A stretch of DNA of 44,099 nucleotides from Clostridiales bacterium (lineage in GTDB: Bacteria > Bacillota > Dethiobacteria > Dethiobacterales > Dethiobacteraceae). This document shows, in pieces, positions 6,372 to 41,555 of the stretch; the stretch's first letter is position 1; each line of letters starts with the position of its first letter. Under the pieces are notes generated by a model. That model was not told the origin of the DNA. It did no database searches and saw only the letters and a list, made by a program, of their open reading frames with translations. The DNA lies in assembly GCA_018335855.1 (NCBI GenBank), contig JAGXRM010000056.1, positions 1 through 44,099 on the forward strand, written 5' to 3'. The position numbers and the translations under genes are program-made.

Positions 6372-6457
6372 ATATGGTAATAAAGGCAAACCTGTTGAAA
6401 AACAGGGACGCAAAGCACGGGCCTAAAGCTTTGCTATGGCAGCCGGTTGCTGGTGTG
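6372..6457 (+). promoter_or_regulatory. Cyclic di-GMP-I riboswitch (GEMM)
   Basis: The conserved aptamer elements appear in order: AAAGGCAAACC (6382-6392), a CCTGTT-GAAA-AACAGG stem with a GNRA loop (P2), GGGACGCAAAGC (6405-6416), GGGCCTAAAGC (6420-6430) and the GCAGCCGGTTGCTG tetraloop-receptor-side stem ending near 6455. This matches the c-di-GMP-I consensus (GGCAAACC, GACGCAAAGC, GGCCUAAA). It lies directly behind a promoter at 6330. No clear terminator follows, and the gene below is decayed, so the expression platform may be lost. Family recognition is strong; current function is uncertain. Confidence 0.9.
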
Positions 6458-33258: not shown

Positions 33259-35259
33259 ATGACGAAGGACCTGGAAAAAGAAACTTGCGCAGCAGAAGTA
33301 CCTGAGCTCCCCATGGAGTTGGCGCCGGATACAGAGGCGGAGGTATCGAATCAAAGAGACTTCCAAGGGAGAATCGGTAAGGTCCTTGTATACTTCGCGG
33401 CTGCAGTTTCCGTTTTCCATATTTACTTTCTTGTCTTCTCACCTATGGAACAATTGCTGTTCCGGGGTTACCACCTAATGTTGCTTGGTGTTCTTGGCTT
33501 TGCCTATTTCCCCGGCTGGGTAAAAGCAAAAGAAAAAATTCACTGGATCGATTATTTAGGTATGGCCGCTATATCGGCGGTTACAATTTATATTGTATTG
33601 AATTTCAGCCGCGTACAATACTTTTTCGGTACGAACCGCGCGTCTGATTTAGACATGTGGGTTGCCTTGCTTGGAATTATCATTGTTTTGGAGTTAACTC
33701 GTCGTACGAGTGGGAATTCGCTGCCTATTCTCGCGTTAGTTTTTCTGATTTATCCTTTTGTCGGAAAATATTTGCCAGGGATTTTTATAACCCCGGCCTA
33801 TTCAGCAAAGCGCATCCTGACGTATGTTTATACTACAAACGGTATCTTCAGTGCGCCGTTGGCTATTTCCGCTAAATATATCATCCTCTTTATTATTTTT
33901 AGTTCCTTTTTGACCGTATCAGGTGTAGGCACCTATTTTGTTGAGTTTGCATTTGCCATCAGTGGTTTTGCCCGTGGCGGCCCCGCCAAGGTAGCTGTTA
34001 TTTCCAGCGCTTTGATGGGTATGATGAATGGCACATCCGCCGGTAACGTAGTTGCCACAGGAAGCCTTTCTATTCCTTTGATGAAGCGGGTTGGCTACAG
34101 TCCAACGTTTGCTGCTGCTACAGAAGCAGTCGCTTCAACAGGCGGTCAGATTATGCCGCCTATTATGGGCGCCGGTGTGTTTATTATGGCAGAAATTACC
34201 GGCATTAAGTACGAACGGATTATGATTGCCGGAATTATACCTGCTATCCTTTACTTTTTCTCGTGTTACATGATGGTTGACTATGAGGCCATTAAGCTGA
34301 AACTTTACGGCGTACCCCGCCATCTGTTACCCAGTATCCCCCAAACACTAAAGAGGGCCTATCTTTTCATCCCGGTAGTTGTGCTAATTTATGCGCTGTT
34401 GGCCGGATATTCCGTGATTATGGCAGGTTTTTGGGGAATTGTTTCCAGTTTCCTTGTCAGCTTAATATCCAAGGAAACCAGGATGGGCCCCAAACAGATT
34501 ATTGAAGCTTTGGAAAAAGGCGCCCGTGGTTCAATTCAGTTGGCCGCCGTTTGTGCCGCGGCCGGTATTATCATGGGTGTTATCGTGTTGACAGGTATCG
34601 GCGGCCGGTTTGCCGGCGTTTTGTTAGCCATTGCTGATACCAACATCCTGCTGGCCATGATTTTTACCATGGGTGTATGTATTCTTCTTGGTATGGGCAT
34701 GCCCACGACAGCAGCTTACGCTGTGGCTGCATCTGTTATGGCACCCGGTCTGGTCGTAATCACCAGGTCGAGTCCGGCTTTTGCCCATGTACCAGCTGAT
34801 ATTATTGTACTCTTGCCGCATATGTTTGTATTCTACTTCGCCTGTGTATCATCGATTACGCCTCCGGTGGCTCTCGCCGCATATGCCGGGGCGGGTATAT
34901 CCGGAAGCGATCCCATGCGGACAGGTGTAATGTCTTTCCGTCTGGGTATTGCAGCATATATTGTACCTTATATGTTCTTCTATGCTCCGGAAATTCTCGG
35001 CATCGGTTCTCCGGCTATGATTGCTTTCCGCACAGCAACGGCACTTTTGGGGATCTTAGCTCTTGCATCAGCAGTGCAGGCTTATTTCAGAGGGCACTTG
35101 AATTTGTTACAAAGGGTGCTGATGTTTGCTGCCGCAATTTCGCTGGTATCACCAAACGAAATATTCGATATCTTAGGCGTCAGCCTGATGGCCTTTGTCT
35201 TCATCTCCCACAGTCTGCCATTCTTCAAGAAGGATAAGGATGTCCCTGAAGCAGCCTAA
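33259..35259 (+). CDS. TRAP transporter fused permease (DctQM, 4TM/12TM type)
   Basis: A 666-residue membrane protein combining the small DctQ-like part (helices in about residues 35-150) and the large DctM channel. DctM signatures: MGMMNGTSAGNVVATGS, EAVASTGGQIMPPIMGAG, MGMPTTAAYAVAASVMAPG. It pairs with the TAXI receptor for Na+ or H+ driven uptake of an organic acid. GAGAGGAGG precedes ATG 33259. Perfect hairpin and T-run end the operon at 35293. Confidence 0.95.
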   Translation: MTKDLEKETCAAEVPELPMELAPDTEAEVSNQRDFQGRIGKVLVYFAAAVSVFHIYFLVFSPMEQLLFRGYHLMLLGVLGFAYFPGWVKAKEKIHWIDYLGMAAISAVTIYIVLNFSRVQYFFGTNRASDLDMWVALLGIIIVLELTRRTSGNSLPILALVFLIYPFVGKYLPGIFITPAYSAKRILTYVYTTNGIFSAPLAISAKYIILFIIFSSFLTVSGVGTYFVEFAFAISGFARGGPAKVAVISSALMGMMNGTSAGNVVATGSLSIPLMKRVGYSPTFAAATEAVASTGGQIMPPIMGAGVFIMAEITGIKYERIMIAGIIPAILYFFSCYMMVDYEAIKLKLYGVPRHLLPSIPQTLKRAYLFIPVVVLIYALLAGYSVIMAGFWGIVSSFLVSLISKETRMGPKQIIEALEKGARGSIQLAAVCAAAGIIMGVIVLTGIGGRFAGVLLAIADTNILLAMIFTMGVCILLGMGMPTTAAYAVAASVMAPGLVVITRSSPAFAHVPADIIVLLPHMFVFYFACVSSITPPVALAAYAGAGISGSDPMRTGVMSFRLGIAAYIVPYMFFYAPEILGIGSPAMIAFRTATALLGILALASAVQAYFRGHLNLLQRVLMFAAAISLVSPNEIFDILGVSLMAFVFISHSLPFFKKDKDVPEAA

Positions 35260-35292: not shown

Positions 35293-35335
35293 AAAAAAGG
35301 CGCAAATTCTTATCAGGAATTTGCGCCTTTTTTTT
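35293..35335 (+). terminator. Rho-independent terminator, 17-bp perfect stem
   Basis: AAAAAAGGCGCAAATTC (35293-35309) pairs with GAATTTGCGCCTTTTTT (35317-35333), with further T residues. It ends the TAXI-TRAP operon. Confidence 0.9.
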
Positions 35336-35338
35336 ATA

Positions 35339-35509
35339 GGCAAGGAAATTATAACGCTCAGGGAAGCTACGATCCTTGCCGTGGGGGTTGTAAGGGGGTG
35401 TTCCCCCTTACTCTTGCGGGGTGCTCAGGGTCCTCAGACCCGCCGAAGGGGCGGCAGCCCCTAGCGGAATAAAAAAGACGTTCATCTGAAAACGCGTAGC
35501 GTCTTTTTT
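35339..35509 (+). other. Chain of stem-loops ending in a terminator, candidate structured RNA or repeat element
   Basis: Five perfect stems follow one another: GGCAAGGA (35339-35346)/TCCTTGCC (35373-35380); GTAAGGGGG (35390-35398)/CCCCCTTAC (35403-35411); GGGTC (35428-35432)/GACCC (35437-35441); GGGGC (35448-35452)/GCCCC (35457-35461); and a terminator AAAAAAGACG (35471-35480)/CGTCTTTTTT (35500-35509). There is no open reading frame of note and GC is much higher than the flanks. No promoter is visible inside 35334-35338, so it may be read from upstream, be read on the other strand, or be a dispersed GC-rich repeat. The stretch 35510-35639 beyond it holds no gene. Confidence 0.5.
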
Positions 35510-35639
35510 AGGCTTCAGCTTCACTGTTCGCTGGCAGAATTGTGTAACGTTAAAAACCGGAGAAAAACAGACATATACAAGGGTAAATCGTGGAAAACGA
35601 AGGTAGACACTAAAAATAAAAATAAATTTCCAAAAAACA

Positions 35640-35667
35640 TTGACTTTTCCCAGGAATTTGTTACAAT
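35640..35667 (+). promoter_or_regulatory. Sigma-A promoter for speD (TTGACT-16-TACAAT)
   Basis: TTGACT (35640-35645) and TACAAT (35662-35667) are 16 bases apart, about 65 bases ahead of the speD start. Confidence 0.7.
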
Positions 35668-35732: not shown

Positions 35733-36113
35733 ATGAGCGCATTAGGTCGTCACGTTCTGGCTGAATTCTACGGATGTCCCACAGAAATTTTAAATGATAT
35801 ACAAAAGATAGAGCGAACGATGGTTGACGCCGCGTTAGAAGCTGGCGCTGAAATCAGGGAAGTGGCATTCCATAAATTTAGTCCTCAGGGCGTAAGCGGG
35901 GTTGTGGTAATTTCAGAATCACACCTGGCGATTCACACTTGGCCCGAATTAGGCTATGCAGCTGTGGATGTATTTACTTGCGGAGACACAGTGGATCCTT
36001 GGGTGTCCTGTAATTATCTTAAAGACCATTTTTCCGCCGAGCGTTTGTCAGCTCAGGAAATAAAGCGCGGTATTTTTGAAATTGAAGTCTCCCATAAAGC
36101 GGCAAACTTCTAA
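35733..36113 (+). CDS. speD: S-adenosylmethionine decarboxylase proenzyme
   Basis: A 126-residue class 1B proenzyme. Autocleavage between Glu62 and Ser63 ([13 protein letters not shown]) creates the pyruvoyl cofactor from Ser63. Conserved HxxP-type residues HTWPE and the VDVFTCG motif (Cys at about 82) are intact. The product, decarboxylated SAM, is the aminopropyl donor for the spermidine synthase gene just below. AAAGGAGG precedes ATG 35733. Confidence 0.96.
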
Positions 36114-41063: not shown

Positions 41064-41150
41064 TGGTGCGAGAGGGGGGATTTGAACCCCCACAGGCGTA
41101 TTGCCCACTAGATCCTGAGTCTAGCGTGTCTGCCGTTCCACCACTCTCGC
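41064..41150 (-). tRNA. tRNA-Leu(CAG)
   Basis: Minus-strand gene with acceptor GCGAGAG/CTCTCGC, discriminator A and encoded CCA (41066-41064). The anticodon loop CTCAGGA gives CAG. The long variable arm is typical of leucine tRNAs. Last of five tRNAs. Confidence 0.92.
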
Positions 41151-41156
41151 AAATTA

Positions 41157-41232
41157 TGGTGAGCCATGATGGACTCGAACCATCGACACCCTGATTAAAA
41201 GTCAGGTGCTCTACCGACTGAGCTAATGGCTC
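41157..41232 (-). tRNA. tRNA-Lys(TTT)
   Basis: Minus-strand gene with acceptor GAGCCAT/ATGGCTC, discriminator A and encoded CCA. The anticodon loop CTTTTAA gives TTT. Its 3' end plus flank (CTCACCATAATT) matches the recombinase-proximal repeats at 212-223 over 12 bases. Confidence 0.93.
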
Positions 41233-41278
41233 ATACGTTAAAAGAAAGGTGGAATAAAATCCACCCAGATAATATCGT

Positions 41279-41354
41279 TGGCTGGGGCGGCTGGACTCGA
41301 ACCAACGCATGCGGGAGTCAAAGTCCCGTGCCTTACCGACTTGGCTACGCCCCA
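41279..41354 (-). tRNA. tRNA-Gln(TTG)
   Basis: Minus-strand gene with acceptor TGGGGCG/CGCCCCA, discriminator G and encoded CCA. The anticodon loop CTTTGAC gives TTG. Confidence 0.92.
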
Positions 41355-41373
41355 ACACAAAAGAAATTAAAAT

Positions 41374-41459
41374 TGGTGGAGAGGACTGGATTCGAACCAG
41401 TGAAGTCTGAGACAACAGATTTACAGTCTGCCCCCTTTGGCCGGCTTGGGTACCTCTCC
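41374..41459 (-). tRNA. tRNA-Tyr(GTA)
   Basis: Minus-strand gene with acceptor GGAGAGG/CCTCTCC, encoded CCA and a long variable arm. The anticodon loop CTGTAAA gives GTA. Confidence 0.92.
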
Positions 41460-41479
41460 ACGTAAACTGATATTAAGTT

Positions 41480-41555
41480 TGGAGCCGACGATGGGACTCG
41501 AACCCGCAACCTGCTGATTACAAGTCAGCTGCTCTTCCAGTTGAGCTACGTCGGC
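41480..41555 (-). tRNA. tRNA-Thr(TGT)
   Basis: Minus-strand gene with acceptor GCCGACG/CGTCGGC, discriminator T and encoded CCA. The anticodon loop CTTGTAA gives TGT. First tRNA of the operon, 20 bases after the promoter -10. Confidence 0.92.

Follow-up and report, generated by a model that had tools for sequence, protein, structure and literature searches.

A chain of hairpins behind a TRAP transporter terminator is very probably one copy of a small multicopy mobile element with relatives in several Bacillota families

A gene-free gap in the genome of a Clostridiales bacterium of the family Dethiobacteraceae carries a GC-rich chain of hairpins behind a transporter gene, which raises the question of whether the chain is a regulatory RNA belonging to this locus or a repeat that has arrived there. 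The window analysed is the whole stretch of 44,099 nucleotides of contig JAGXRM010000056.1. An earlier note had described five consecutive perfect stems at 35339–35509, the last of them terminator-like, in a gap between two terminated operons. All five stems were recovered from the sequence within these positions, and the last is indeed terminator-like, while the inner part of P5 is imperfect. The best bounds are 35337–35510, which extend the earlier ones by 2 bp on the left and 1 bp on the right. The features of the locus are as follows.

35293–35336, + strand: target of the insertion, the intrinsic terminator of the TRAP gene, consisting of a hairpin (35293–35333) and the T8 tract TTTTTTTTA, with the element directly behind it
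35337–35510, + strand: whole element, very probably mobile, 174 bp, TAGGCAAGG...CGTCTTTTTTA, delimited by copy alignment, boundaries and empty sites
35339–35345/35374–35380, + strand: P1, left-end hairpin GGCAAGG...CCTTGCC, 7 bp with a 28-nt loop, covarying across nine families
35376–35453, + strand: stretch similar to Clostridiales-2 (RF02937), consisting of P2, the conserved TTGCGGGGTGCTCAG, P3 and CGAAGG (45 bits, E 1e-9)
35390–35398/35403–35411, + strand: P2 hairpin GTAAGGGGG/CCCCCTTAC, 9 bp, covarying
35428–35432/35437–35441, + strand: P3 hairpin GGGTC/GACCC, covarying
35448–35452/35457–35461, + strand: P4 hairpin GGGGC/GCCCC, followed by the conserved TAGCGGA, with a C-G to G-C switch at pair 5
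35471–35480/35500–35509, + strand: P5, right-end bidirectional terminator-like hairpin AAAAAAGACG/CGTCTTTTTT, borne by the element and ending in TTTTTTA at 35510

The upstream gene (33259–35259) encodes the large subunit of a TRAP-type transporter and is closed by its own terminator hairpin, the stem of which is also listed on the minus strand in the promoter and terminator scan of the window. The downstream genes, the first of which starts at 35733, are presumably speD and speE, and a promoter-like site at 35640–35667 precedes them. The gap therefore has a terminated operon on one side and the promoter of the following genes on the other, rather than two terminated operons, and at this locus the element would place a second predicted terminator downstream of the TRAP operon and ahead of the speD promoter. 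The minimum free energy of the segment is −73.5 kcal mol−1 compared with a mean of −61.6 kcal mol−1 for shuffled sequences (z = −2.7), and one of the 200 shuffles was as good. Elsewhere in the window, a c-di-GMP-I riboswitch aptamer lies at 6375–6454 (+ strand, 70.8 bits), and five tRNA genes are clustered at 41067–41555 (− strand).

The chain is not unique to this locus. The DNA search of its own genome gave 21 matches, about ten of them near full length. Besides the window copy there are three others with an identity to it of 98% or higher and a fifth that runs off the end of its contig; a second subfamily includes two copies identical to each other. Identity within the subfamilies is mostly 97–100%; the two subfamilies in this genome differ chiefly in P1 and P2, where the pairing is kept in both. 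The DNA search of relatives gave matches in 14 of 40 genomes, every one of them in the family of the window. The covariance model, which has 131 positions, matched 14 times in the own genome, 59 and 65 times in two genomes of the same family (G013 and G019), 29 times in the single 3.72 Mb contig of G172, which belongs to another Bacillota family, and 21 times in a further genome; G012 and G015 carry 19 and 25 copies. Most of these genomes are metagenome-assembled drafts with contigs broken at repeats, and the number of copies close to contig ends is uncertain. Relatives of the element exist in several families of Bacillota, and no match was obtained in the plasmid and phage records.

Several related forms were also observed. 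At L050–L053, L083 and L115 there are short copies with little beyond the P1 hairpin, also behind terminators, which are either decay products or a separate mini-form. At L270, L271, L285 and L286 (family f17), near-identical related elements share P1 and P2, have a different core, GGGGGTAACAGGAGCGAAGCGACGTCATAGGGGG, and end in the terminal hairpin CAAGAAAATTGAC/GTCAATTTTCTTG; several of them lie behind terminators. Core-only matches in G004 and G017 were considered as the ends of a larger coding element and proved to be another non-coding subfamily with similar ends.

The insertion of the element can be followed by comparison with orthologous sites. The window site is empty in a Dethiobacter record, where the orthologous terminator is present without the element, and searches with joined flanks gave empty orthologous sites for five insertions in G017. 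The occupied site at L057 has the sequence GCCTTTTTCA, then the element TAGCATAGG...GCGTCTTTTTTA, then GAGAGG, and the empty relative reads GCCTTTTTCAGAGAGG, in which GCCTTTTTCA is followed directly by GAGAGG. The left tract at this site is TTTTTCA and the right tract TTTTTTA. Comparison of the flanks with the empty relative shows no visible target duplication, a result that rests mainly on this one informative site; in general, the T-runs make the position of the junction ambiguous by a few bases. Among the copies of the subfamily in the own genome, the right end is constant and the left T-tracts vary, which assigns the left T-tract to the target and the right hairpin with its TTTTTTA to the element. 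For the same reason, a T-tract supplied on the right by the target, through priming on AAAAAA, was dropped. In tandem copies, the second copy starts at the TTTTTTA of the first.

Insertion is precise and falls 3′ of a T-tract, which in most cases is part of an intrinsic terminator, with the element in the same orientation as that terminator. Over 69 sites, whose shared ancestry is uncorrected, the upstream sequence folds with a minimum free energy of −8 or lower in 65% of cases (25% in control windows), and an average of 6.0 T falls within the 8 nt at the junction (2.1 in controls). About two thirds of the copies lie behind a stable hairpin in the terminator's orientation, and about one third of the sites have a T-tract only. 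The eight copies examined in G172 start directly after T-rich tracts, most of them behind an evident terminator hairpin. Two copies (L122, G004:C130:45158; L322, G172:C1:269100) lie directly behind the terminator of leaders, GGTGGTACCGCG..., that look by eye like T-boxes, where they could disturb the antitermination switch.

The interior of the element has the properties of a folded molecule. In 22 diverse copies, changes on both sides were found for 12 of the 26 pairs, and 51 compensatory cells were counted compared with 14.4 in shuffles; none of the 500 shuffles reached the observed value, and sliding the partners gave 4–20 cells. For P1 alone, across nine families, there were 35 compensatory cells compared with 9.6, again with none of 500 shuffles as high. 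The strong covariation of the stems indicates that the fold is under selection. On the + strand, 13 G-U pairs were found against three A-C mispairs, small numbers which suggest that this is the strand that folds.

The near-identical copies together with the abundant compensatory changes identify the chain as a repeat with a conserved fold. The earlier note had left the choice between a regulatory RNA and a mobile palindromic repeat, and it had set a lack of expression together with many near-identical copies, or a lack of compensatory changes in homologues, against an RNA. Counting copies gave the many near-identical ones that a repeat predicts, while compensatory changes, far from lacking, were plentiful; the near-identical copies and the empty orthologous sites favour the mobile repeat and leave a regulator bound to this locus unsupported. 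Taken together, the chain very probably belongs to a multicopy family of small mobile elements that are non-coding and non-autonomous.

The chain had also been thought to match no known RNA. This holds at the gathering threshold, at which no Rfam family was found over the element, but its middle part matches Clostridiales-2 at E 1e-9, with all model positions from 1 to 82, the full length of the model, aligned at 45 bits. The gathering cut-off of this family is 58.6 bits, and the best score in any genome searched was 56.5. Since the alignment is full-length and the score is below gathering, the element is regarded as a diverged relative of Clostridiales-2 and not as a member by the curators' criterion. 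The likeness comprises the P2 hairpin, GGGUGCUCAGG, the P3 hairpin and CGAAGG in the same order; the family as defined has only these 82 positions, without P1, P4, the terminal hairpin and the insertion behaviour of the element. The Clostridiales-2 RNA motif was reportedly described in one earlier paper, and in the open-access literature, whose coverage makes this a weak negative, nothing was found on Clostridiales-2 as an RNA or on small repeats targeted to terminators.

The next question is how such an element moves. Group IIC introns are known for inserting behind terminators (PMC7923331). In eight of the genomes studied here (G004, G017, G012, G010, G019, G168, G172 and G153), group II introns start with GTGCGCCCGG directly behind a hairpin followed by TTTTTA, TTTTA, TTATA, TTTTTG or a similar tract, with the target and polarity of the element. 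As with these introns, about two thirds of the element copies lie behind a terminator hairpin and a T-rich tract (IBS1) in the same orientation, the rest having the T-tract only; the comparison is one of position and polarity, with no shared molecule. The 5′ ends differ (TAGC or TTGC in the element, GTGCG in the group IIC intron), and the element, at 174 bp, has neither the group II ribozyme domains (V, D1–D4) nor an intron-encoded reverse-transcriptase gene, which excludes it from the group IIC introns themselves. With a limit as lax as E 10, neither RF00029 nor RF02001 matched the element, although the same library finds real introns, and no coding sequence was found in it. Because introns of the same organisms occupy the same kind of site, we infer that the element has the same target preference as group IIC introns but neither their ribozyme nor their reverse transcriptase.

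One specific version of the mobile-element reading, which we hold as a tentative possibility, is a SINE-like retroelement: group IIC introns or a relative would provide the reverse transcriptase that moves its RNA in trans. The common target and polarity, the precise insertion without visible target duplication, and the RNA-like, covarying interior are consistent with it. So is a copy in G013 (L085, G013:C84, at 45562 of the contig) in which the 26 bases immediately before the element are the beginning of a group IIC intron (GTGCGCCCGGCATGGGCGATAACTTG followed by TAGCATAGG), as if the element had inserted into the 5′ remnant of the intron. However, searches for RVT_1 and RF02001 were negative both in the own genome and in G013, despite its 59 copies, the element has no ribozyme core, the spacing from stem to junction looks longer by eye (about 8–9 nt compared with 5–6), and 3′-truncated copies are more numerous than 5′-truncated ones. 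Introns are present in 12 of 24 element-bearing genomes compared with one of seven element-free genomes of the family, an association that is only suggestive. In G001, an RT-18 RNA (RF03021) was observed just upstream of a short reverse-transcriptase gene (L195, 1416–1486).

A second specific form, which we consider slightly less likely than the first, is single-strand DNA transposition by a Y1 transposase of the IS200/IS605 type, with the element as a PATE- or REP-like derivative. The element has hairpins near both ends and no terminal inverted repeats, it inserts on the 3′ side of a short T-rich stretch similar to its own 3′ end, and the own genome has two Y1_Tnp genes. Insertion of the IS200/IS605 type would occur without duplication behind a short fixed target; here the one informative site shows no duplication, and the target is T-rich yet not fixed. 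Both Y1 genes of the own genome, however, are flanked by a different REP-like repeat of their own, of the GGGACGGTTC type. No Y1_Tnp occurs in G012 or G015 despite their 19 and 25 copies; conversely, it occurs in G005 and G010, where the element is missing or almost missing. The conservation of the interior fold would also be unexpected for such derivatives. Y1 transposases are therefore the poorer candidate, given the other repeat at their flanks and a distribution that differs from that of the element. No convincing copy was seen at loci with Y1_Tnp or RVT_1; missing genes for a multicopy transposase prove little, since most of the genomes are metagenome-assembled.

REP/RAYT elements are short, palindromic, non-autonomous repeats associated with IS200/IS605 (PMC3733652), and the element is likewise short, palindromic and non-autonomous. 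It differs from them in having no conserved GTAG/CGTC tag at the hairpin end and a longer, multi-hairpin fold, and its copies are not beside Y1 genes, nor does its presence track Y1_Tnp; with no association with a Y1 transposase gene, it was not assigned to REP/RAYT or to IS200/IS605 derivatives. The Y1_Tnp genes at L205 and L208 (G000) are RAYT-like and flanked by GAGAACCGTCCCC(TG)TCGC repeats, a different REP-like family. By description, the element also resembles bcr1–bcr18 of Bacillus cereus, which are multicopy, non-coding repeats of 100–400 bp with possible mobility resembling site-specific recombination at a T-rich TTTAT motif (PMC6542083). The likeness covers size class, copy number, lack of coding sequence and the T-rich site; the hosts differ, and the available part of that description gives the bcr repeats as specific to the B. 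cereus group and does not mention terminator targeting (PMC6542083).

The remaining explanations are weaker. That the chain is a conserved trans- or cis-acting regulatory RNA of the Clostridiales-2 family, with the repeats as dispersed sRNA genes, would fit the RF02937 similarity and the strong covariation, but it is improbable because orthologous sites lack the element, its presence follows T-tracts and not gene function, it lies behind a terminator, and the promoter scan found no promoter-like site inside it. A classical MITE, which would likewise be small, multicopy and non-coding, is very unlikely, since the left end TAGGCAAGG and the right end CTTTTTTA are not inverted repeats and the informative site shows no target duplication.

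For the mobile element, the following course of events is proposed. An enzyme supplied in trans would recognise the folded element, as RNA or single-stranded DNA, and also a target of hairpin and T-tract that resembles the element's right end. The element would be joined behind the T-tract. Its own terminal terminator-like hairpin can become the target of later copies, as in the tandem copies. With a target position and polarity like those of group IIC introns, intron-like (reverse-transcriptase-assisted) and single-strand transposition are the leading candidates; an intron-like reverse transcriptase is conceivable and a Y1 transposase a little less so, and on balance an enzyme of some other class is slightly favoured. 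Joined behind the T-tract, the element would leave the upstream gene intact and give it an additional, bidirectional terminator as a cap, and this would account for the tolerance of insertions. With a landing place downstream of a stop signal and a bidirectional terminator-like hairpin of its own, the element is probably near-neutral or insulating for the host when it inserts.

Small bacterial repeats are usually confined to one genus or species group, and their hairpins usually serve only as DNA signals. In the present case, no fewer than nine families of Bacillota retain the same chain of hairpins, with compensatory changes. It is a speculative, rather doubtful extension that such elements form a bacterial counterpart of SINEs, that is, phylum-wide short structured RNAs with their own terminator that retrotranspose into other terminators, with group IIC introns lending them both target recognition and reverse transcriptase. 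As a caution for similar cases, covariation and many copies do not by themselves make a dispersed regulatory RNA. If the mobile-element reading is right, Clostridiales-2, labelled as an sRNA family, would be at least partly the core of a mobile element, terminators would be landing sites for a second, non-intron element, and the machinery acting in trans would become a concrete object to search for.
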